Source: Siphonodentalium dalli
Lineage: Eukaryota > Mollusca > Scaphopoda > Gadilida > Siphonodentaliidae
Assembly (NCBI GenBank): GCA_032622095.1
Contig: CP136061.1
Location: forward strand, 55,067,762-55,131,761
Direction of reading: 5' to 3'
DNA: 64,000 nucleotides
Shown in pieces: positions 20,701 to 40,797 of the stretch. Numbering within the stretch: the stretch's first letter is position 1; each line of letters opens with the position of its first letter. The notes under the pieces were generated by a model that was given only the letters and a program-made list of their open reading frames with translations, had not been told where the DNA came from and did no database searches. Made by a program: the position numbers and the translations under genes.

Positions 20701-23700
20701 TTGAATGACCAAAACAAGCTGGACAATTTCATTAACTCTTTACTGGCCCTGCAATCTCTGTCGAACGTCAATAAATATATGTTTAATTCAATATTTCAGG
20801 TCAATCAGAAGTATAATGGATAGTGTCGATAAAAATTTGGATGAGATTGAGAGATTACCACTGAATATAAAGAACAGGGTTCTTAATCTCATGTCAAAAA
20901 GAGGAACTCTCACAGATTCTAACATCCATAAGGTGAGAACTATTATGCAGAAAACACAATTCAGTTTAAGGCCACATCAATTTTATTAGTTGTTTTACAA
21001 ACATCAAGGAAAAAAATCTCTTGATGGAGGAGGAACAAATATTAAAAAAAAACCCTGGTAGGCCTTGACATACTGATTGGCGGATTATTCCACATGATCA
21101 CTGGTGAGTGCAAATCTCATATATTCTAGAGGTGCTATGATTATTGATGTTGATAATCGATAATCGGTCATCAATAATCAACTATAATCGATTAATCGTA
21201 GCTAATGACATCAGTGGAAGTACATAATATGGCCTATTGGCTGGGTGCTGGTTAACTGCACTGTCGCTGGTTGTTTGAGGCATCGGCTGATGTAATTTTA
21301 CGTCAATAAAGTGCATGATAAACCACTGTTAATGACCAATGAACACAATGAATTCAATACCAGCACAGTTCTCGGCGATGTTATAATATTTGTGAGTTCA
21401 TTAGAACGAACGTAGCGATTAATTTCAGTGTTATGAATAGCCAAACATACAAACAATATAAAAGTAGGAATGCACGATGGATGGCCGGCGGTTCCTAAAA
21501 CAAGGAAACTATAAGTTTCATCAAACTTCCAGAGCATGGATAATAATCACAAAGGTGTGCCCCCACCCGCAAATTGCAGGACTCAGAACAAGTTAAGTAT
21601 TTGATAATATCGAGATTCATCGCAGTATACTAAGTATACTTATGCAAACAAAGTATACTCACAAATGACATCGCGGAGAACATCGCTGACTAAAATGGCG
21701 TAGGTTCCCTGGTTTCTAGAGAATGTCAATCAACTCCCCATTGGTCCAATCAGATTCAAGGGCGAGTGCATTCAGTTCATTGAACACGGTGACAGTCGGC
21801 ACATTTCAAAGACATAGTGTCGCCTTTCAAGTATAAATATACAATGACGTGCCATAAGTTCAAAAGTGCCTCCAAAATGTAGAATATACAATGACCCGAA
21901 GAGTAACCATGTCGCATCATCAAATGAACTGCCGACTGTTTGCAACATAAGTTAGTAGTACTCATGTTTTCGGTATCTCATTGATACGTGACCAAAGGTT
22001 GTTAACCCTTTGGTTGTAGATTAAACTGTGTAAAACAAACAAGGTATTCAATAATACACGGCATTGTCCGACGTCAAAATAAATAATGCAGATTAATCGA
22101 CAATGGAAATGGTAATCGATTATCGGCTTTATCAACGGTTCATCGATTATACGATTAATAGTGGCACCGCTAATATTAAATTTAAATATTTTTTTGCGAA
22201 TAAAAATAATTGAAACCAACAAATTAATACCTCAATTATTCTCGTTTTCCTATGTCATCATGACTGTTAGAATGGTTTGGTGAGAAGTTTTACACAAACT
22301 GAACACCGTGGGCATTTAAATAAAAAAAAATTAAAAAAAAAAAATGCATTTTCAATAAAAAAAGTTGTCCGCAGGTTCGTATGAAGTTAGAGGTTAAATG
22401 CATCTGTGCCAACTTTGGATCTCTATATACATCAGTAATCATAGGTCATGTTTGAATGAGCTTCAGTATGCTCAGTGAATTTTTCGGGCATCTGAATACA
22501 TGTAGGTCAATAAATACCTGAAATAACTTTCTATTAACATTAAATGTTCCAGAAAGACACATTGAAGTCATAAAAATTACCACTTTGAATGCAATATTCG
22601 GGGTTCGAACATCTGTTACGCTATTAATTTTCCATCAGGTTCCGTATCAGTAACAGATATTGCGCAAGTGTCCATACATTTATGCGCTGCTTTCTTTTCA
22701 TTTTAATCATCAAAATTATGTAGTACCATAGCGATGACACTAGATTTTTCATCTATTATATATTTTGGAACTTCTGTGTGTATGTATGTGTGTTATTGAC
22801 TTGAAAACTGCCTGACCGATCCGACTCAAATTTCGTATATAGGCCTACTTTGATCCGGGGAACAACATGGGCAGGTCCAATTTCACGTGTGGTCGTCGTG
22901 TCCTTGACCTTGACCTCGCTCATATACGCTCATATAGGTATGTTTCTGAACCTCGACCTATCTGACTCAAATTTAGTATGTAGGCCTACTTTGATCCCGG
23001 GAACAATATGGGTGGGTCCAATTTCACGTGCGACCGTGTCCTTGACCTTGCTTATATACGCTCATATAGACATGTTTCTGGACCGATCTAACAATAGTTT
23101 TTTTTTGTCCCCCGACGTTTCCGTCGGAGGACTATAGAAATGACCCTCGTCCGTCCATCCGTGCGTCCGAGATTGGGTACCTTCATGGTGTAATCAACTC
23201 CTCCTACAGTTTTAAACGTAGAGATTTGAAACTCTGGGATATTGTTCCTAACATGTTGGTGATTTGCAACATCTATATAGCTAATCAAAAATAATTTTTT
23301 TTCCATATTTTTGGGGGGGTTTTCGACTTAGAAAATTTGGAACATTTTTGCCTTTTGGATGAGATTGGGTACCTTCATGGTGTAATCAACTCCTCCTACA
23401 GTTTTAAACGTAGAGATTTGAAACTCTGGGATATTGTTCCTAACATGTTGGTGATTTGCAACATCTATATAGCTAATCAAAAATATAATTTTTTCCATAT
23501 TTTTGGGGGGGTTTTCGACTTAGAAAATTTGGAACATTTTTGCCTTTTGGATGAGATTGGGTACCTTCATGGTGTAATCAACTCCTCCTACAGTTTTAAA
23601 TGTAGAGATTTGAAACTCTGGGATATTGTTCCTAACATGTTGGTGAATTGCAACATCTATATAGCTAATCAAAAATATAATTTTTTCCATATTTTTGGGG

Positions 23701-26700
23701 GGTTTTCGACTTAGAAAATTTGGAACATTTTTGCCTTTTGGATGAGATTGGGTACCTTCATGGTGTAATCAACTCCTCCTACAGTTTTAAATGTAGAGAT
23801 TTGAAACTCTGGGATATTGTTCCTAACATGTTGGTGATTTGCAACATCTATATAGCTAATAAAAAATATCATTTTTTCCATATTTTTGGGGGGTTTTCGA
23901 CTTAGAAAATTTGGAACATTTTTGCCTTTTGGATGAGATTGGGTACCTTCATGGTGTAATCAACTGCTCCTACAGTTTTAAATGTAGAGATTTGAAACTC
24001 TGGGATATTGTTCCTAACATGTTGGTGATTTGCAACATCTATATAGCTAATAAAAAATATCATTTTTTCCATATTTTTGGGGGGTTTTCGACTTAGAAAA
24101 TTTGGAACATTTTTGCCTTTTGGATGAGATTGGGTACCTTCATGGTGTAATCAACTGCTCCTACAGTTTTAAATGTAGAGATTTGAAACTCTGGGATATT
24201 GTTCCTAACATGTTGGTGATTTGCAACATCTATATAGCTAATACAAAAATGTAATTTTTTCGCGTTTGTATGCGTTTGTTCATCGGGTTATTTTGTCCAA
24301 GAAATTTTGCCAAGAAATTTTGCGGTGGTTTGCAACATCTATATACTATATAACATTGTTGCAAATAGTATCCTTCTAACAAATCCAATCATGAAGTTTA
24401 CCACTCGAGTCGGGGGACATGTGGTCTGCGACCTTTTATCTTTTCAACGTTGACTTTTCACAAAGAAATCCCTAAATAGCCCAGACGAAGTTGGGCACAT
24501 CAGCTAGTCTATTATATATTTTGGAACTTCTGTATGTATGTATGTATGTGTGTTGAAAACTGCTCGACCGAACCGACTCAAATTTGGTATGTAAGCCTAC
24601 TTTGATCCGGGGAACAATATGGGCGGGTCCAATTTCACATGCGATCGTGTCCTTGACCTCGCTCATATATGCTCATATAGGCATGTTTCTGGACCTCAAC
24701 CGATCCGACTCAAATTTGGTATGTAGGCCTACTTTGATCCCGGGAACAATATGGGCAGATCCAATTTCACGTGCGAGCATGTCCTTGACCTTGACCTCGC
24801 TCATATACGCTCATATAGGCATGTTTCTGACCGTTCGAACAATAGTTTGCCCAGACGCTGTATATTCTGCCCAGATGGAGGCGATCACAAAGAAATCCCT
24901 CATTAGCCAGGACGAAGTCGGGCACATAAGCTAGTCTCTTATATATTTTGGAACTTCTGTTTGTCTGTCTGTGTGTGTGTTATAGACCTGAAAACTGCTC
25001 AACCGATCCGACTCATATTTGGCATACATTGATCCCGGGAACAACATGGGTGATTCCAGTTTCATGTGCGACCGTGTCCTTGACCTTGCTCATATAGGCA
25101 TGTTTCTGGACCTCCACCGATACGACTCAAATTTGGTATGTAGGCCTAATTTGATCCTGGGAACATTATGGGCAGGTCAAATTTCATGTATAGCCATGTC
25201 CTTGACCTTGCTCATATAGACATGTTTCTGGACCGATCGAACAATAGTTTGTCCAGATGCTGTATATTCTGCACAGACCGAGGCGATCACAAAGAAATCC
25301 CTAAATAGCCCAGATGATCAACTAGTGTTGCATAATTTTAGATGTTTTTTTATTCTAGCTTCTGAATACAGGGTTGTATGTTTTGGATCTGAGCGAATCA
25401 GATGTGACAGATAAGGCATTAGTTCATCTCAGAAAATGTCCTAATTTGAAAAAGATAGATCTGAATTCAGCAAAAGTCAGTCGAACTGATATCACAACAC
25501 CAGGTATGGTTCCCTAATCTGATAAAACGAAACATTAAATCAAAATATGTCATTGTTCCTAGATTCCGAAATTTATTATGTATCTTATCCTAATACTGGT
25601 ACTACCATACTATACTGGCAGTCTGGCAAGGTATATTTCTCATTTCGAAATGCACAGATCATTTAACGAGATGCTTTTGAGGTTGACAATTTTTAAAAGA
25701 TAGGGCCTAGTCCTATACACTTGTCGTGTGTTAATTAAAGTTCAATCATGGATGCGATGCGACGGGGACATTATTCACTTTAATCAGCACATCATGCTGT
25801 CAATTTGTTAGCTACAATAACAGAACAATACTGATCAATCAACCATGTCCGCAAATAATATATAGTCACAATGTTTCATTTCTGATTTCGTCCGATACCT
25901 ATTATCCAAGGGCGAAAGGACCAGACCAGAAAATACTGGACTATAGCTTGGACTTGTAGGTTGGACTGGTCATAGTGTCGACGTCCGGATTGACCACTCG
26001 TCGTTCGTCCGTCTGTCTGTCCGTCTGTCCGTAGACACTTTACGCAAAATGCGATAACTCAAACATTTTCTTTCCGATCGGAACCAAATTTTGAATATGT
26101 GTTTCTCAGGCCAAAATACAGATCGAGTTCAAATATGGCTTTCATCCGACTTTTTTTTTTAGAGTTATGGCCCTTTTTCGACTTTTCAAATTTTTTTTAT
26201 CTGATTGGAACCAAATTTGGTATGTGAGTTTCTCAACACAAAAAACTAATTGAGTTCGAATATGGGTTTGATCTGATTTATTTTAAAGGATTTGTGACCC
26301 TTTTTCAAAAATAAAATAAAAAAAAAAAAAATTATAGATTGAACTCCTTGCTCAATTTAACAACAAAAAAATTATTATAACTTTTTTGTTAACTTTTATA
26401 TTAATAATAAAAAAAAAAAAAAAAAAAATAGTCATTGACACTTTCATTTGTTTGAATTTTATACCATTAATTAGGTGTGATGTCCTGTTTTGAAAATAAG
26501 AAGATTTTATTGCAATAGTTGCATGTAATATAATGATATTAATAAATTACTAACATCAAATATCCATAGTATATGAGACTACCTTTAATAGATGTCATTC
26601 CAAGTGAAATATGTTATTAATTGAGTGATGACATATGGTTCAGACCTCTAGTGGTGGTTAGATGAAGGTAAAGATAAACAACTGCTCACTGGCTGGCGAA

Positions 26701-29700
26701 TTGTTTAATCCTATCTGTTAAATTGATTAATGGCAGTATGAGACTCTTGCTATAATGTACATGGACTCTTCCTCATATCTCTTATCTATGGTTATCTTTG
26801 CACACTATTCACTTCTAATGATTTTGGTATTGACTGATTAATTGATTTTTGAAAAATATATTAACCCGTCAGACACATGCTTTCAATTTGAAATTAAAAT
26901 AATGGCTTATAGCCAATATGATTTATCTATGCAGTAGGTAACAGGCAGATAAATTTACATGACTATTGTAGGTGATGCCTTGTTTTGAAAATCAAGATGG
27001 TAGATGTTGTTAATATTTCCAGGAACCTTATTTTCCCATTTGTTCATATTGTCATGGTTGATTGAATTTTGGACTTCAAGCTACTTGTAAAACATTGTAA
27101 TGTGTGAAACCATTTGATTGAGGGCTACTTACTTTCTGTATATGAACTATGGTAATCTGTTTCGATTCAGGGGTCATAAGGGCCAGCGTCCTCATCATAT
27201 TATGTCTGTATAACATTATATAGATAACACTTGTGTTTTGTATAACCCCTGTTATGAAACACTTAATCTTGCATGTACCTAACAATATAAGCATTCCTTA
27301 TTACACAGATCAGATATGATCATATCTGTCCATGTTTTATAAACAAATAACAACTGGGGAGGGGGGGGGGGGGGTAGTAATTAAAGTACAATTTAAATAT
27401 GAGATGTTCTAAGCAGTCTGGCTTGTCAACAAATTATAATTTGTCTTTAGAAGTGAATGAATTTTGAATATCTGGCATGCCAAAAGAGGCAGAGAAAGGG
27501 ATTTATCACATTTTTTCCAATGTGCTAACTTACGGTGAACTCCTAAACATATCCTCCAAAATCACTAAACCGTTGGATCTCACAGTGAGAGGTCTTTGGG
27601 TGAATAGGGAAAGAGTTATGAGATTAAAAACTACTCCTCCCCCACCCCAAACACTTTAACCCCGTCTTAAGACAAATTATTTGAGCAAAGTTTGGTACTG
27701 ATGTATGGATTCCTGTGATCATATCTTTGAAAAATTATCAGTTATAGCTAATTGCTATCGCCAAGGTATGGGTTAAACATCTGCCGATCGTGATCGGCCT
27801 CTCGTTTAGTTTAGTTTCTCTGTATCCCTAAATTGGCAGACGACACATTGCATAATCAAGGTTCCCAATGGGTATACATCACTATATTCATCATGTGTGA
27901 ACTTGAATCTGGGTCTATGTGTCCCATAGCAGATGAGGCCATGCAGAATGAGGTCCCCAGAGGGTGAATTTAGTGATGCTAGCCCACTCTGCGGGATAGC
28001 GTCACTAAATTCACCCTCTGGGGACCTCATTCTGCAAATGAGAGGCACACTGAACTCAGGCTTGACCATATTAATTTTTCAGGTATTCTGTCCATTGCTC
28101 AGTATTGTCATAAGCTTCAGGCCGTTTATTTGCGGAGGTGCTTAAATGTGACAGATGAAGCAGTTGTCGCGATCGCTCAGAGCTGTCCTGATCTAAAGGA
28201 ACTCAACATTGGGGGATGTAAGCAGATAACAGATAGAAGTCTGGAAGCACTCGGACAGAACAGTCGCAATCTCAAATGCATTGATGCCTCCAAAACTAAT
28301 GTAAGTATAAAACGTAAATAATTTATTCATATGATGAGATGGCCTCGTTTGTTGAACTTATTATCTGAACATTTCCTAAGGGATAACTACTCATGAATGA
28401 GTATTTAGTATAAAAATGGTTAATCTTCAAGACTCAAAGACCCTAATAATTTCATGTTCTTGTCACTTTATGTGGATTCAAAATAGGTAGATAACAGGGA
28501 TGTGGCTAGAGGGTCTCCATGGGTGGTACTCACCTTAGAATTTCCAACCCCCCCCCCCCCCCCCCACCTTGAACCAGACCGAAATTCCCAAGTTCAGGAA
28601 ATTCCATTTGCATCTTCCTCTTGAATTCCTACTGTTAACTCAAGGTTTCCAACTGTAGGAAATTTCTGACCTGAAACCTCGTCTATGGTTGGAAAATGAT
28701 GGCCAATTCATAGACTTAGCTCAAATTTAGGAGATTTTTCATAAATAAAAACTTGTTATTTTAACTGAAATTAGAGCCAAATAATACGAAATAGCATAAT
28801 AAAATTTTAATATTCAACACTTTAGCAAAAATATAAAGCTTAAGTTTCACCTTAAATAAGTTTATTTGTTTGTTTGGATCTGCACTCAACAGCCAATTGT
28901 TTATTTTGTCCATGCTCACTTTGAATACTTATATACTGATTTTATGTACTCTATGTGAAAAACCCAGATCCGTTCTAGAGGAAACCTGGATTAGGTTACA
29001 AGAGGCCCAGTGAGACATAGCAACTCTGGTTAACTTAAAATGTTAAATGTAAATCCAGTTTCTTGTGAAGATTTTGTCCAAGGTTTATATGTTCTTGTAA
29101 TATGGTCTTGGTTTTCTGTATGTCATCCTCATGTGTTATATGTCTAAAAAACAATTATATGGCTGTTACCAGAAACACACATATTTTTGTCTGTTTCGGC
29201 TGATGAATCATTTGACAGTTGCTTCTTTTGGAAGCAAGAATTGAGATGTAACTGATGAATACCGAAACAGCTACATGTATTTATTTTCTTCCCAACCATG
29301 TAATGTGTTTATTTGATATTTGAAATGTTGTTCTCTACGAGTTATTCCTTTATGACAGATCACAGACATGGGAGTGTACAATTTGGTTAGTGGATGCCCA
29401 TCACAGACACTCAAGGTTAGTAAGTACGAGAATAGGAGTGTAGTCAGAACGAGAATAGGAGTGTAGTCATACGAGAATAGGAGTGTAGTCAGAACGAGAA
29501 TAGGAGTGTAGTCAGAACAAGTTCCCTAACCAGCTCCCCTGACAGATGTTTAACCTTTTCATGACAGGAGTTTCCTGAAATTTTCGCAAACCAAAGGGAG
29601 CCATGCATATATAAGAGAATACATTGGCCGAACAATATTTACCTTGGCCTTGTAAGTCAGTGCATTCTCTTATATATATGAGGCTTCCTATGGGAGACTC

Positions 29701-35000: not shown

Positions 35001-38000
35001 TTTCAAATAATGAAAAAATTGTCAGCTTATTCTTCGACTCGGAGACTATAGAAACCAACAACAACATTTGGCGTACAGTACCCCTTTAAGCTTGAGTTAT
35101 GAAAAGCTACACTAACTAATCACAATATTTTTTATTTTGATTCCTTGCAACTTGTGCCAGTTTGGAATCGGAGAAAAAAAACATCTTTGTTCTCTCCACT
35201 ATGCAAATGAAAAATAGTTTGTTGATGCAGGGATTTCCTCTGAAGATGGGTTCAAACTGCACTCATATCTGTCCACACCCAAAAAATAAATTTACAGTTG
35301 CTAGCATTTTGCACTTTCTCACTACTGTCAAGAATGCTTCTGTTGCGAATATTGAATCAATGTTGAACTCTTTATTATCTGTAGTTTCCACAAGGATTGA
35401 CCATTTTTTTCAGGAGGTTCATATTACCTGCTACATTAATCTTACTGATGTGGCAGAATTTACTATTTTTCAGAAGGTTCATACATGTATTAGGGCCCTG
35501 CCAGTCGGGGGTTTTCATTTCGATTAAAATCTCATTGGGTAAGAGATTCAAAATCTCGAATCTAATCACTATATCGAGTGTATCAACAGTGAAGAGGTGG
35601 AACAGTTTAGGAGACACTTAAACTGTATCAAACTGAAAACCTCTTAACAACTGATCACCAATGGATTTTATGTTACCTAACCATATTAATGTGTCTTCTG
35701 AGCAATATGCATGCATCTCGTTTTCCTCATAAATACTGATGGATGTGAATCATTGAATGCGATGAGTGGTGGATGCAGAGTAACTCTTTATAATGTGCTT
35801 TCGAACATTCGTAGTCAGCAAAATTTGTCAATTTCAGTGTTATATTGAAATCTGCCATTGTATCATTCTGAACTCGTTGACCTATGGTAGTATATAGAAT
35901 GGAGACTTCTGTTGTTTGCACATTCAACTCTTGGAATCCTGGAGTCATGTTGGGTTTACATCATTCTTATGAGATTATTATGAATTAAATAATTGGGCAG
36001 TCTGTTTATAGATCATTTTGAGACATTGTTATTTTAATGTGCATGCATTTGCTAGTATTGTGCAGTTTCTTAGCAAAAGAGCATGTTGTAAGTACTCTGT
36101 AGTCTACAGAAACCATCAGAATGGAGTCAATTCACCGGAGAGAACAGATTCGATAAAATTCTAATCAGGGCAGCCAATTTCGAATCGAATCGAATCAGAC
36201 AAATAATTCCGAATCGATTCGCAGGCCCCTAGTTCATTTAAGCAGCTGTCTTAATCTAACTGATGAGGCTCAATATAATATTTTTCAGGAGGTTCATGCA
36301 AGTGGCTGTCTTAATCTTACTGATAAGGCAGAATATAATATTTTTCAGGAGGTTCATATAAGCGGCTGTCTTAATCTAACTGATGAGGCTCAATATAATA
36401 TTTTTCAGGAGGTTCATATAAGCGGCTGTGTTAATCTTACTGATGAGGCAGAATTTACTATATTTTTCAGGAGGTTCATATAAGTGGCTGTCTTAATCTT
36501 ACTGATGAGGTAGAATATAATATTTTTTCAGGAGGTTCATATAAGCGGCTTCTTAATTTTACTGATGAGGCAGAATATAATATTTTTTTCAGGAGGTTCA
36601 TATAAGCGGCTTCTTAATTTTACTGATGAGGCAGAATATAATATTTTTTTCAGGAAGTTCATATAAGCGGCTTCTTAATTTTACTGATGAGGTAGATTAT
36701 AATATTTTTTTCAGGAAGTTCATATAAGCGGCTGTGTTAATCTCACTGATGAGGCAGAATATAATATTTTTTCAGGAGGTTCATATAAGCGGCTGTGTTA
36801 ATCTCACTGATGAGGCAGTGGAAGCAGTCACTCAGATGTGTCCGAAAATAAGTCTGCTCATATTCCACGGCTGTCCAAAAATGACAGGTAATAACTCTAA
36901 AATAGATTCAAGGGTACTAGATAGTAATTTTTAATTAAATATAAGGCCATTGAATATAAATAAATGACTAGATTTTTTGGAAAATTGGGGCTGACGGGCA
37001 AATTTTATTGATTTAAAATGTTATTCTTGCTAACATAATTGTTCACGGTCAGTTTTTATCCCCCGCCAAATTGAAAATAGGAATGGTTTCCGTCCGTCCG
37101 TCCCAAATTTGTAAAAGTCATATAACTTGAACAAATTTCAACGGATTTCAAAGAATTTTGGTATATGAGTTTTATTGATTTAAAATGTTATTCTTGCTAA
37201 CATAATTGTTCACGGTCAGTTTTTATCCCCTGCCAAATTGAAAATAGGAATGGTTTCCGTCCATCCCGAATTTGTAAGAGTCATATAACTTGAACAAATG
37301 TCAACGGATTTCAAAGATTTTTGGTATATGAGTTCACCTGACCATTACCTAGAATGAGTTCGCAAGCCAGGTCCGGCCGGATATTTTTACCGGAGTTATT
37401 GGACTTTGTTTATTATTTTTGTCGAATTTACCAAATAGCAAATAGACGACGTCACAGGGCTTATTTCCACAAATCTCAACGGATTTCAAAGATATTTGGT
37501 ATATGAGTTCACCTGACAATTACCTAGAATGAGTTCGCAAACCAGGTCCGGCCGGATATTTTAAGCAGACTTATTGGACTTTGTTTATTTTTTTGTGTGC
37601 AAATGGACGACGTCACAGGGCTCATTTCCAGAAATGTCAACGGATTTCAAAGATTTTTGGTATATGAGTTCACATGACCAGTATCTAGAACGAGTTTGCA
37701 AACCAGGTCCGGCCAGATATTTTCAGCAGAGTTATTGGACTTTGTTTATTATTTTGGGTGCAAATGGACGACGTCACATGGCTAATTTCCACAAATGTCA
37801 GTACCTAAAATGAGTTCGCAAGCCAGGCTTTTTGACAAAATCCCACCTCTTGTTTAGCACATTCTGAGAACGCAAACATTTTTGAGAATGCACTTCCCCA
37901 ACTGCACAATTCGGTGGGTGATACCGCCGTCTGCGACTGCTTGTAGAATTGAAGCAGTATCTTACAATAATTATACCCGCATAATTTTCTGTAGTATTTT

Positions 38001-40797
38001 TCCATTAGCTAAGAAAGAGCAAAATTTGATAATTACACTAGGGGCGGATCATGTCAAAGTGACAGTTGAGCATTTGCCACGTCGACACGCAAATTCGAAT
38101 GTCACAATAAAGTGTCCAATGTGTAATGATATATCCAACTCAAAATACCTTGTTGTGTTGATATGTTGATATGTAATTATAAGCAATAATTTCTGTTATA
38201 AATATAACTACTGTTTGTCTTTAAACTGTGTAATTACATTAGGAAACAGAGATTATTCCTACCAAAGGTACGAACTGCAGCCTGTGCCAAATTTAGTCAT
38301 GCAAAGAGTAAAATCCAAGATGGCTGCTGACGGCCATGTTTTTTAGCCTAATGACCCCAAAATGACTCGTTTCCCATCTACATGTCAATATTAAAATCCA
38401 TGACAAATTTCATAATGATCCGACCTGTAGCCTGTATTGTTGATGCCTCACACATGCACACACACACGGACCACGGATACCAAGCCATGGCAACAGCTCA
38501 AACTCTGCTAAGTAAAGTTGAGCTAAAAATAGATAAGACTATTTCTTCATTACCAATAATCCCTCAGTTACCAGTTACAGCAAGTTGAACTCTTTGTTTA
38601 CATACACTTATGTTACAGTAGAGCGAAATATGTCCACAAACACCGCTATTTTTTCCCCAAGTTATCCTATGTAGTCACGAAACAAAGAATACAATTAATA
38701 ACTATTTGATGAAAATGACGAGATTGCATTGATTGTAATCAGACACATAGAGATGTGTATTCTCTAGTTAACTCCTTCGTAGCTAAACTGAGATCACTCT
38801 ATCATACGTGTTTTAGACTTAAAATGAAAAAATATATTACTTGCACCATTGTACATATGTTCTGGTAATTACATTAGTGAGTAAAAATTTAACACATTGA
38901 AGCACCAAATTTTGTGATATTATAAAGTTATTATACAATGTTGTGTACAGTATGTGTTTTTCTTGTACGAGTCCAGGTTGTGGTAAAAAGTTATATTGGA
39001 CGAGTGACACACAGTGAGTCATATTGGACTGCGTGTCTCGTCCAATATGACTTTTCACCACAACCTGGATGAGTACAAGAAAAACTCATACTGTACACAA
39101 CATTGTATAATGACATTTTTATTATCCATCTGTATGGTTATCCAAATTTTGGGAATAAAACTTTTGTGGTTAGTTTTGGTATTTGTTGGCACTTAATTCT
39201 CTATAAAAGCCTGTATTTTGATCATCAGAAAGCATGATTTGGAACAGTAAACACGGAAAAAAAACTCATTGCGGAAGTGAAACGTCTGCTTTTTCCACAA
39301 GTTTTGTGCGCGCATCACAATTTCACGATTCATTTCGCAATCGAGTTAATTCGTGACATCACAGAGTCCCGATAAAAAAGTCATATTGCACACTTGGGAG
39401 TCCAATATGACATTCGGGAGTCCAACATGACTTTTTCCCGCATTATCACATGGCGGCTTTTGCCCAATCAGAACTAGTGCTAGTTAAGGGATGGATATAT
39501 TACATGCTAGTTCCTAGAAATACAGTGTTATTGCTGTTCCATATATACGCATCTCGTTGACGTTCGCATCAACTATGAAACTGGAACTATAAAGTAAAAG
39601 CATCATCACACATGACAAAACAAGCCCTGTATATGCCTAAATAAACCTTGTAAGCCTGTAATTTTTAATGCACAGATTATAGGACAGGTGATGTGCAATA
39701 AACACAGAACGATATGTGTCAGGGCATAAAATCCATTTAATTTTGCGAGAATCACTGAAAAGCACTGAAAATTGAAAAGTTTCGCGAGAATCATTACAAG
39801 AATCGATTCTGTGATTCTTGTCAAATCTTGAGGCCTGCATGTGTTAATGGGTTTGTTGAAGTGCCATCGTGGAAGGACACACTTGTCGTTCTGTGTATAT
39901 ATATAACGTTCGATCAGTTCAACATTTCATAAAAAAATGGGAATAAGACAATAATTGAATCGAATCTTGAGGCCTGCATGTGTTGTTAATGGGTGTGTTG
40001 AAGTGCCATCATGGAAGGATAGAACTTGAGGCTGCATGCCGTATCAACAAACCCATCAACACACTTCTGTGTATATATATAACATTCGATCGGTTCAACA
40101 TAAGACAATAATTGAAGTGATGCACATTTATTCTCTTATAGGATTTTTCGGTAATAATTCCAGACATAATGACAAAGTAAAATGCATGACATAGAGTAAC
40201 TTCCTTGCCGATGATCGCCGGCAACATCAGAATGAAAATGTTGAGATTGATCTGATATATTGATTTTCCGACCAACATTTATGTGGTCATCTGCGCAATC
40301 TTGACCAAGAGCTGATAATTTTGATAAAAAATAGACTTTCAAGAGTAGAGAAACATGGGCCTATGACTACGATTGAAGACCTAAACGTAGTAAATTGGAA
40401 GTACATGAATAACTGTCAAAAATTTATTTCTTAGTTGGGAATGTAGTGTCTGGAGATGTAGATCTAGTGCTGAAATGATTATCCAACTAATCGACAACAT
40501 CATGATTATTAAATTAGTCGATCCCTAAATCTACTAGTCAATTCGTCGGGGAAAAACCACTACTTATATGCTGTAGGCCTGCAGGCCATGTACAAATAAT
40601 GTGAGTTTTATGTATTTTTGCCATGTTAATATTACCACGCAATATTGAAGTGAGCTTCATAATTTCAATAATTGTATGCAAGCACTACAAAATATGTGTA
40701 CTACAATATATTTCCAGAACAATCGAGGATGGCATTAGAAGAACTGTCATTTGATGACTCACGGAAGATGAAGCAAGTCACATGGACAGTTTACTGA
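14696..40797 (+). CDS. AMN1: AMN1 homolog, leucine-rich-repeat protein, 7 exons, 270 aa
   Basis: CDS exons are 14696-14763, 20800-20932, 25359-25503, 28083-28300, 29359-29415, 36776-36887 and 40718-40797. All introns are GT-AG and every phase agrees, giving 270 residues; vertebrate AMN1 is about 258. Exons 1-2 align without a gap to the vertebrate N-terminus (LPLNIKNRVLNLMSKRG against LPPNIKDRLIKIMSMQG). Exons 3-6 hold cysteine-type leucine-rich repeats (CLNVTDEAVVAIAQSCPDL, CKQITDRSLEAL, CVNLTDEAVEAVTQMCP), and the protein ends KQVTWTVY as in vertebrates. There is no F-box, so it is not an FBXL protein. Yeast Amn1 antagonises the mitotic exit network; the animal protein is poorly characterised, so function here is family inference. 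Introns total about 25 kb and are packed with mobile elements. The gene looks intact. Confidence 0.93.
14899..15736. mobile_element. Non-autonomous hAT element in AMN1 intron 1
   Basis: Both ends carry CAGGGGTGGCGCCA as an inverted repeat, and CATGCTCG is duplicated at 14891-14898 and 15737-15744. The 8-bp duplication and CAGGG-type end are hAT features. Subterminal CCCCGTCGGGGA phrases recur at both ends. There is no transposase. It lies 135 bp after exon 1. Confidence 0.88.
15755..16570. mobile_element. Foldback element with TACCATGG-rich ends
   Basis: ATGGTAAAATTTACTGTGCA occurs at both ends (15795 and 16505). The body is inverted: TATAGACAAGTATGGAAAGC near 16002 faces GCTTTCCATACTTGTCTATA near 16363, and the outer parts around TTATCAAAATCC face GGATTTTGATAA. 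The boundaries are approximate. Confidence 0.65.
16668..16790. repeat. CTTAAG-centred palindrome cluster 1
   Basis: Several copies of palindromes of the type TTGTGCTTAAGCACAA or TTGCGCTTAAGCGCAA lie close together, some decayed. The same motif recurs at 18735-18940 and 19080-19178. Confidence 0.75.
16790..17830 (-). repeat. Tandem array of ~130-175 bp unit (AAGATGGC family), ~7 copies
   Basis: On the - strand each unit reads AAATCCAAGATGGCTGC, GGCCATGTTTTTTGGCC, a GAATGACCCCAAAATGACTC block, CCATCTACATGTCAAT, CATGACAAATTTCATGATGA and TACGACCTGTAGCC. About seven units are seen, of unequal length. Open frames through it are by-products of the repeat. The same unit occurs at 38250-38520, 43083-43893, 47340-49190 and 49563-49790. 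Confidence 0.85.
18165..18610. repeat. Degenerate direct duplication
   Basis: GAAGCAAGCCCTCAGTGACA near 18182 and GTAAGCAAGCCCTCATGCAG near 18413 begin two related ~235-bp stretches, each with CCAT-TAT and ATACTGATAAT-like phrases followed by TTAGGGTTT. Confidence 0.45.
18735..18940. repeat. CTTAAG-centred palindrome cluster 2
   Basis: About eight palindromes of the form (A/T)TTGYGCTTAAGCRCAA occur within 200 bp, most separated by only a few bases. Confidence 0.85.
19080..19178. repeat. CTTAAG-centred palindrome cluster 3
   Basis: Four intact and one decayed member of the palindrome family lie in about 100 bp with ~22-bp spacing. Confidence 0.8.
19255..19900. repeat. TACCATGGTA-rich stretch in AMN1 intron 1
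   Basis: Many copies of ACCATGGTA, ACCATAGTA and similar near-palindromes occur throughout. They are related to the ends of the foldback element at 15755-16570. No boundary was resolved. Confidence 0.5.
20800..20932 (+). CDS. AMN1: AMN1 exon 2
   Basis: The acceptor is ATATTTCAG and the donor GTGAGA. The exon completes the split Leu and then encodes residues 24-67, including DEIERLPLNIKNRVLNLMSK and GTLTDSNIHK. It ends on a whole codon. Confidence 0.92.
21128..22155. mobile_element. Inverted-repeat element, probably hAT-like, in intron 2
   Basis: The left end TAGAGGTGCTATGATTATTG and the right end (inverse TAGCGGTGCCACTATTAATC) match, followed on both sides by ATAATCGATAATCGGT-type sequence. 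Ends of this style are typical of hAT elements. I did not find a matching 8-bp target duplication. The open frames inside have no transposase motif. Confidence 0.6.
23107..24418. mobile_element. GTCCCCCGAC-ended element with satellite core
   Basis: GTCCCCCGAC at 23107-23116 and its inverse GTCGGGGGAC at 24409-24418 bound the element. The left end also forms a hairpin with GTCGGAGGAC at 23123-23132. Next come CCGTCCGTCC-type repeats and then the 191-bp array. It interrupts a unit of the surrounding tandem repeat, which fixes it as a later insertion. Confidence 0.7.
23170..24250. repeat. 191-192 bp satellite, ~6 near-identical copies
   Basis: Copies start near 23170, 23362, 23553, 23744, 23936 and 24127 with GAGATTGGGTACCTTCATGG and differ by only a few bases. 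Differences include the length of a G-run after CATATTTTT. Because 191 is not a multiple of three, the open frames through it change frame from copy to copy, which argues against protein coding. Confidence 0.93.
25359..25503 (+). CDS. AMN1: AMN1 exon 3
   Basis: The acceptor is TTTATTCTAG and the donor GTATGG. The exon encodes residues 68-115 (LLNTGLYVLDLSESDVTDKA, then LVHLRKCPNLKKIDLNSAKV and SRTDITTP), the first recognisable leucine-rich repeats. It ends one base into a Gly codon. The exon begins about 35 bp after a tandem repeat array ends. Confidence 0.92.
25980..26440 (-). repeat. Dispersed module repeat, inverted relative to 230-690
   Basis: CCGGATTGACCACTCG, a (GTCC/GTCT)n tract, GTAGACACTTTACGCAAAAT, GCGATAACTCAAA, GGAACCAAATTT and GAGTTATGGCCC occur in the reverse order and strand compared with 230-690. 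Confidence 0.7.
27795..28035. mobile_element. Truncated copy of palindrome-bounded cassette, next to AMN1 exon 4
   Basis: The last 93 bp (27943-28035) form a near-perfect palindrome starting GCAGAATGAGGTCCCCAGAG and ending with its inverse. The upstream ~150 bp match the spacer of the complete copies at 33901-34255 and 53203-53577. The outer left palindrome is missing here. Confidence 0.8.
28083..28300 (+). CDS. AMN1: AMN1 exon 4
   Basis: The acceptor is AATTTTTCAG and the donor GTAAGT. The exon completes Gly116 and encodes residues 117-188, the central cysteine-containing LRRs (ILSIAQYCHKLQAVYLRRC, LNVTDEAVVAIAQSCPDLKE, LNIGGCKQITDRSLEALGQN). A mobile palindrome ends only 47 bp upstream of the exon. 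Confidence 0.95.
28498..28700. repeat. Poly-C / AATTTCCAACC repeat fragment in intron 4
   Basis: GGGATGTGGCTAGAGGGTCT, AGAATTTCCAACC, then a run of about 20 C resemble the 13140-14470 family and the copy at 44575-44765. Confidence 0.55.
29359..29415 (+). CDS. AMN1: AMN1 exon 5
   Basis: The acceptor is TATGACAG and the donor GTTAGT. The exon is 19 codons, ITDMGVYNLVSGCPSQTLK, matching the vertebrate VSDSGVIALVSG-C segment. It is short, but its position, phase and sequence all fit. A minisatellite begins a dozen bases past the donor. Confidence 0.9.
29428..29520. repeat. Minisatellite just after AMN1 exon 5
   Basis: About four copies of a ~23-26 bp unit, GAGAATAGGAGTGTAGTCAG plus AAC, start 12 bases after the exon 5 donor. 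Copies are nearly identical. Confidence 0.9.
29554..33784. mobile_element. 4.2-kb TTAA-flanked DNA element in AMN1 intron 5
   Basis: TTAA at 29550-29553 and 33785-33788 flank inverted ends of the form CC(C/T)TTTCATGxCxGGA. Further homologous inverted sequence follows (GGGCATTTTTCAAAAAA near 29709, inverse near 33705). TTAA targets and CCCTTT-type ends are typical of piggyBac-like elements. No transposase is visible; the open frames are short. Both arms carry many copies of a GGTAACAGTAGGGAC-like motif. The core includes one AAGATGGC fragment (about 31380-31450) and a ~33-base poly-C run (32019-32048 region). Confidence 0.75.
29890..33345. repeat. Interspersed GGTAACAGTAGGGAC-like motifs (~11 copies)
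   Basis: Copies or close variants lie near 29896 (inverse), 30238, 30278, 30450, 30469, 30625, 32755-32795 (inverse, twice), 32938-32970 (inverse, twice), 32980, 33132 and 33325. They fall in two clusters, in the left and right arms of the TTAA element, with none seen between about 30660 and 32750. Confidence 0.8.
33901..34255. mobile_element. Palindrome-bounded cassette, complete copy
   Basis: A palindrome at 33901-33976 (AGAATGAGGTCCCCAGAGGG and its inverse) and a second at 34163-34255 bound a ~190-bp spacer containing TAGTTGAGTTTCTCTGTATT and CCCAATGGGT. The layout is the same at 53203-53577. Confidence 0.8.
34505..35085. mobile_element. 581-bp TTAA-flanked inverted-repeat element
   Basis: The ends are AGGGGGTACTGTACGCCA and its near-perfect inverse, flanked by TTAA at 34501-34504 and 35086-35089. 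The interior is AT-rich and non-coding. The end sequence differs from the CCCTTTCA group, so it is a separate family. Confidence 0.85.
35405..35490 (+). repeat. Two decayed copies of the AMN1 exon-6 acceptor unit
   Basis: TTTTTTTCAG followed by GAGGTTCATATTACCTGCTA, then TTACTGATGTGGCAG, then TATTTTTCAGAAGGTTCATA. The resemblance to exon 6's start is clear. They are separated from the main array by the element at 35491-36231. Confidence 0.8.
35491..36231. mobile_element. hAT-like element inserted in the exon-6 acceptor array
   Basis: The left end TAGGGCCCTGCCAGTCG and the right end (inverse TAGGGGCCTGCGAATCGATT) are related. AATCGAATCGAATCAGAC lies inside the right end. Array copies lie on both sides. 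A perfect 8-bp duplication was not found; GTTCATAC and GTTCATTT are near the two edges. Confidence 0.55.
36232..36775 (+). repeat. Tandem array of exon-6 3' splice site plus exon start, ~9 copies upstream of exon 6
   Basis: Units of 60-62 bp each contain a T-rich tract, CAG, GAGGTTCATATAAGCGGCTG, a TTAATCTxACTGATGAGGCAG stretch, then AATATAATATT. Copies begin near 36232, 36291, 36352, 36412, 36473, 36534, 36595, 36657 and 36718. The tenth is the real exon 6. None of the upstream copies contains the rest of the exon or a 5' splice site. The last spacing is 61 bases, so using the preceding acceptor would shift the frame. Confidence 0.93.
36776..36887 (+). CDS. AMN1: AMN1 exon 6
   Basis: The acceptor is ATTTTTTCAG and the donor GTAATA. 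The exon encodes EVHISGCVNLTDEAVEAVTQ, then MCPKISLLIFHGCPKMT, plus one base of a split Glu codon. It is the last and only complete member of a tandem array of acceptor-plus-exon-start copies lying immediately upstream. Confidence 0.93.
36990..37835. repeat. Tandem repeats of ~165 bp in AMN1 intron 6
   Basis: Two copies of a unit starting TTATTGATTTAAAATGTTAT (37005 and 37171) are followed by about four copies of a unit with TATGAGTTCACCTGACCA, GAGTTCGCAAGCCAGGTCCG, GACGACGTCACAGGG and CAACGGATTTCAAAGAT. All share the CAACGGATTTCAAAGATTTT phrase. Confidence 0.85.
38245..38530 (+). repeat. Single AAGATGGC-family unit with conserved hairpin end
   Basis: One repeat unit (38290-38420) is followed by GGATACCAAGCCATGGCAAC and AGCTCAAACTCTGC-TAAG-TAAAGTTGAGCTAA, the same terminal hairpin that ends the longer arrays. 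Confidence 0.75.
38931..39111. repeat. Large palindrome with TCATATTGGAC motifs
   Basis: The left arm 38931-39004 and right arm 39038-39111 are ~74-bp inverted copies with few mismatches. The 33-bp centre contains GACACACAGTG and another GTCATATTGGAC. The motif recurs inverted at about 39388-39430. Its origin is unknown; it may be a small mobile hairpin. Confidence 0.85.
39828..40110. repeat. Direct duplication in AMN1 intron 6
   Basis: CTTGAGGCCTGCATGTGTTA, GTTGAAGTGCCATC, TGGAAGGA and CTGTGTATATATATAAC then TTCGATC-GTTCAACAT occur in order at about 39828-39930 and again at about 39965-40105. The second copy has a small inverted insertion. Confidence 0.75.
40718..40797 (+). CDS. AMN1: AMN1 exon 7 (C-terminus and stop)
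   Basis: The acceptor is TATTTCCAG. The exon completes the split Glu and encodes QSRMALEELSFDDSRKMKQV then TWTVY and TGA at 40795-40797. The terminal KQVTWTVY is identical to the vertebrate ending. Confidence 0.93.

Follow-up and report, generated by a model that had tools for sequence, protein, structure and literature searches.

Minisatellite-like tandem duplications that span an intron/exon boundary are a named kind of sequence in amphioxus genes, where they are called 'mirages' (PMC3087553, PMC3902484). In the amphioxus globin gene BflGb6, the array lies at a 3′ boundary and has three or six units depending on the haplotype, and splicing was found to be regular by RT-PCR (PMC3087553). Mirages likewise occur in amphioxus PGBD5, Adh and TnC (PMC3902484).

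An array with the same organisation was found in an intron of an AMN1 homologue, within a window of 64,000 nucleotides (the whole stretch of DNA that was analysed). It has in common with the amphioxus mirages (BflGb6, Adh3, TnC and PGBD5) a tandem unit spanning the intron/exon junction, the 3′-boundary type (acceptor plus exon start, with many units keeping the AG), and an authentic exon that is outermost, the edge units being excluded from homogenisation. Amphioxus and the present genome each carry such duplications at 5′ as well as at 3′ boundaries. The unit is 60–62 bp in AMN1, compared with 150–160 bp in BflGb6. The host is a different animal from amphioxus, with a genome of 2.2 Gb in nine chromosome-sized contigs; the amphioxus genome is about 0.5 Gb and has more chromosomes. 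Arthropod cuticle (PF00379), hemerythrin (PF01814) and mollusc haemocyanin (PF14830) families had no match in this genome, although such a result is no proof that they are lacking. Given its structural features, the AMN1 array can with good confidence be classed as a mirage minisatellite, and one that is most likely neutral or almost so. It is of a kind already described in amphioxus, and adds to it from a different animal.

Extra splice signals created by tandem duplication in or near exons are also a feature of two other sets of cases: internal tandem repeats that alter exon/intron structure in humans (PMC2812944), and introns gained by tandem duplication (PMC2891723, PMC4974935). Those cases involve changed exons or new introns backed by transcripts, whereas the AMN1 array is described from the genomic sequence of one assembly.

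Organisation of the AMN1 gene and its array

The AMN1 homologue lies on the + strand of the window, and the array units, the insertion among them and the minisatellite at the other end of the intron are given on the same strand. Six coding exons were found by homology to human AMN1: 20800–20935 (MDSVDKNLDEIERLPLNIKNRVLNLMSKRGTLTDSNIHK), 25359–25509, 28083–28302 (...LRRCLNVTDEAVVAIAQSCPDLKELNIGGCKQITDRSLEALGQNSRNLKCIDASKTN), 29359–29415 (ITDMGVYNLVSGCPSQTLK, with donor aag|gttagt at 29416), 36776–36887 (112 bp, EVHISGCVNLTDEAVEAVTQMCPKISLLIFHGCPKMT, with donor cag|gtaata at 36888) and the last coding exon, 40718–40797 (EQSRMALEELSFDDSRKMKQVTWTVY). The array is carried by the 7.36 kb intron between the exons at 29359–29415 and 36776. 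The exon downstream of it was called exon 6 in the preliminary description; by homology it is the fifth AMN1 exon in the window, and would be the sixth only if there is one further 5′ exon. A separate tandem array (23169–24261), of 5.7 copies of a 191-bp unit that are 98% alike, lies within an upstream AMN1 intron.

By TRF, the array extends over 36232–36818 with a period of 61 bp (9.7 copies, 91% matches, score 900). Each unit has an AT-rich linker followed by 5–7 T and CAG, after which come ~43 bases from the start of the exon, slightly fewer than the ~45 first described. The junction CAG|[GA]A[GA]GTTCAT occurs after positions 35413, 35473, 36288, 36348, 36408, 36470, 36531, 36592, 36653 and 36714, and at the true site after 36775, so that an initial estimate of about nine copies becomes ten upstream copies plus the true exon, counting one unit split by an insertion. 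The spacings of complete units (60, 60, 60, 62, 61, 61, 61, 61 and 61 bp) bear out, together with the TRF period, the originally proposed arrangement of 60–62 bp units with T-tract, CAG, exon start and AT-rich linker. Units and true exon part ways after ~43 bases (GAGGCAG|AATATA in the units, GAGGCAG|TGGAAG in the exon), and the full coding exon is reached from the copy at 36776–36887 alone, as had been claimed, the other copies being intronic. The unit spans the intron/exon junction including the splice signal, and the original description of the array as an exon boundary turned into a minisatellite is apt.

The leftmost unit (35396–35473) has an acceptor-like sequence, ttgaccatttttttcag|GAGGTTCAT..., and is diverged. 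The second is cut by the insertion, with its first bases at 35474–35489 and its remainder at 36232–36288 (GTTCATTTAAGCAG...CAG). Eight complete units (60–62 bp) then occupy 36289–36775, their T-tract and CAG ends falling at 36348, 36408, 36470, 36531, 36592, 36653, 36714 and 36775.

The insertion is probably a non-autonomous element of hAT type (35490–36231, ~740 bp), with inverted ends of that type (TAGGGCCCTGC and GCAGGCCCCTA). About 40 places in the genome were scored for it among 1160 first-look candidates, and these are mostly full or partial copies with 72–85% identity. One other copy (L011) has a plausible 8-bp target duplication; no clean 8-bp duplication is visible flanking the element in the window, where the left flank ends ...AAGGTTCATACATGTAT and the right begins GTTCATTTAAGC. 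When joined, both halves of the interrupted unit form one 60-bp unit, showing that the element landed in a pre-existing array. The greater age of the array had been argued from two decayed copies beyond the element; the conclusion holds, and the copies themselves are really one complete unit (35414–35473) and the first bases of the split second unit. Neither the array unit nor the exon has a sequence match elsewhere in the 2.2 Gb, nine-contig genome; the array thus arose in place, and AMN1 retrocopies, considered as a guide to the acceptor used, were set aside.

Splice potential and turnover of the units

The upstream copies were originally suggested to be decoy acceptors that tune AMN1 output. 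They would capture splicing and lead it into stops and NMD, thereby setting the AMN1 level, with copy number as the tuning element. Acceptors were scored unit by unit with an approximate generic acceptor matrix, which gives 6.92 for the true AMN1 acceptor and 3.6–8.3 for the gene's other acceptors. Among the upstream copies, the five closest to the exon (36470–36714) score 6.86–7.03 and the next three 4.69, while the pair beyond the insertion reaches 7.53 and 9.12 (the latter at 35413). Seven of the ten upstream acceptors are therefore near or above the true one, and the values at 36470–36714 and 35413 indicate that sequence strength alone would not silence decoys. Reading from any of the ten runs into a stop within 14–65 codons, ahead of the donor at 36888, so that the predicted early stop is general; the predicted frame shift is not produced at every spacing, as the 5′-side units are 60 bp. 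From the nearest upstream acceptor, the stop lies ~86 nt ahead of the exon end, beyond the usual NMD limit of ~50 nt. Near-equal acceptor scores and premature stops make the decoy idea possible on sequence.

The evolution of the copies points the other way. Differences across their exon part, by codon position, amount to 19, 9 and 17 differing cells, without an excess at third positions, and three units have a 1-bp, frame-breaking deletion in this part; the copies are evidently without coding constraint. CAG is intact in 11 of 11 copies, which would also fit selection on the acceptors, but by a simple column count this invariance is within chance (P about 0.14). Invariant columns in the T-tract are partly an effect of the alignment, in which length differences of 5–7 T are pushed into linker columns. 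Identity is often highest between adjoining units (up to 96%) and is lowest for the isolated leftmost unit (35413; 66–80% to the other units), a pattern to be expected of ordinary minisatellite turnover, with concerted evolution inside the array that leaves out its edges.

Similar arrays in unrelated chaperonin genes (see below) also count against tuning by decoys, as do the amphioxus mirages, which leave splicing undisturbed by RT-PCR (PMC3087553, PMC3902484). With no sign of selection and the same anatomy at unrelated genes, a regulatory decoy role appears quite unlikely. Slightly less probable still is the more specific proposal of a poison-acceptor bank of variable copy number, in which the bank would set the amount of productive AMN1 mRNA and copy-number differences between individuals would change output.

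The array might instead supply material for a new exon or intron, if one of its units gained a donor and so became a micro-exon; intron gain from mirages has been proposed for the amphioxus globins (PMC3087553). A C-to-T change in two units has created donor-like GAG|GTAGA sites. The unit at 36471–36509, followed by GAG|GTAGAA, would be a 39-nt in-frame micro-exon (EVHISGCLNLTDE), and that at 36654–36691, followed by GAG|GTAGAT, has 38 nt. These candidate donors are weak, scoring 4.3 (36510) and 5.9 (36692) where the authentic AMN1 donors (36888 and 29416) reach 6.8–7.2, and we consider such a role highly improbable. Least probable of all is that copies were collapsed, expanded or invented in assembly: the copy number of such arrays is often misassembled, as happened to BflGb6 itself in the amphioxus draft (PMC3087553), but numerous substitutions and indels distinguish the units, and the array has a hAT-type element within it, which argues that it was not invented, although its exact count could still be off.

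Boundary-spanning duplications elsewhere in the genome

A base rate was obtained from 20 exons of the chaperonin TCP1/CCT family (PF00118) of the same genome, with 430 bp flanks. Kinase loci were left out, because one near-identical tandem kinase array took all the places. This kinase array (L048–L077, G000:C2:149826753-150603706) comprises ~90 protein-kinase reading frames of 281 aa, near-identical and for the most part intact, spaced at roughly 2–3 kb with 252-bp tandem repeats in between.

Tandem duplications spanning a splice site were found in three of the 20 TCP1/CCT exons, at donors in L091 and L094 and at the acceptor in L092. The last has the anatomy of the AMN1 array: an acceptor (TATTTCAG) with ~72 nt of exon is present twice (L092:317–505, 73% identity), and the duplication is specific to this locus in the genome. 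Immediately upstream there is a third trace of the unit end, shorter than the other two copies. In L091 (509–635), a 63-bp segment occurs twice, each ending GAG|GTAAGT, which gives the CCT exon a second full donor. The exon end in L094, ...IIRAFRKATHM|GTAAGC, is repeated as 39-bp units along 533–972; outside this array, its sequence has a single further match in the genome, a weaker one 5.6 kb away. The first extra units of L094 are in frame (VSVIRAFRKATHM), and use of the alternative donors (ATG|GTAAGC) would add 13-residue repeats.

The array-bearing AMN1 intron has a second minisatellite at its other end (29418–29518, 4.4 copies of 23 bp), which is unique in the genome. At the donor it begins 2 nt into the intron, and touches the exon boundary without spanning it. 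Its first unit includes donor positions +3 onward and a donor-like GTAAGT 4 nt 3′ of the real one.

Overall, local duplication covers five of ~64 boundaries (2/11 in AMN1, 3/40 in CCT and 0/~13 internal boundaries in Ras), a small sample in which boundaries are the edges of HMM matches. The same self-match measure puts ~9% of flanking DNA under local duplication, and TRF 2–12%. Enrichment of arrays at exon boundaries was accordingly discarded, there being no preference in this sample. The simplest account is that the genome has much local tandem duplication, which at times catches a splice junction.

Origin and significance of the AMN1 array

As a mirage minisatellite, the AMN1 array would have begun with the tandem duplication of a ~60 bp segment across the intron/exon junction, and would then have been enlarged and partly homogenised via slippage or unequal exchange. 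As no more than the acceptor and the exon start was duplicated, extra copies fall on the intron side, and because the outermost copy keeps the complete exon, AMN1 stays readable. Given the 7.4 kb length of the intron, splicing most likely relies on exon-wise recognition of the full exon of 112 nt, which has a donor and an intact coding sequence. The upstream copies would mostly be removed as intron, and occasional use of the nearest ones may give frame-broken, NMD-prone transcripts. We infer this mode of duplication, the dominance of the true site and little effect on AMN1. For the most part the array is probably bypassed in splicing, and a few leaky isoforms targeted by NMD are possible. It is one of several such arrays in this genome, and most likely a harmless by-product of tandem duplication.

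Arrays like this one, with evenly spaced acceptors of almost equal strength, offer a natural test of how a single site is chosen by the spliceosome among many. They equally test whether alternative splicing or intron gain draws on tandem duplication. Of more use is the finding that boundary-spanning arrays, the mirages of amphioxus, are present in three of 20 sampled exons of an apparently different animal. Mirages may be frequent in any genome with frequent local tandem duplication, and gene annotation there will be error-prone.
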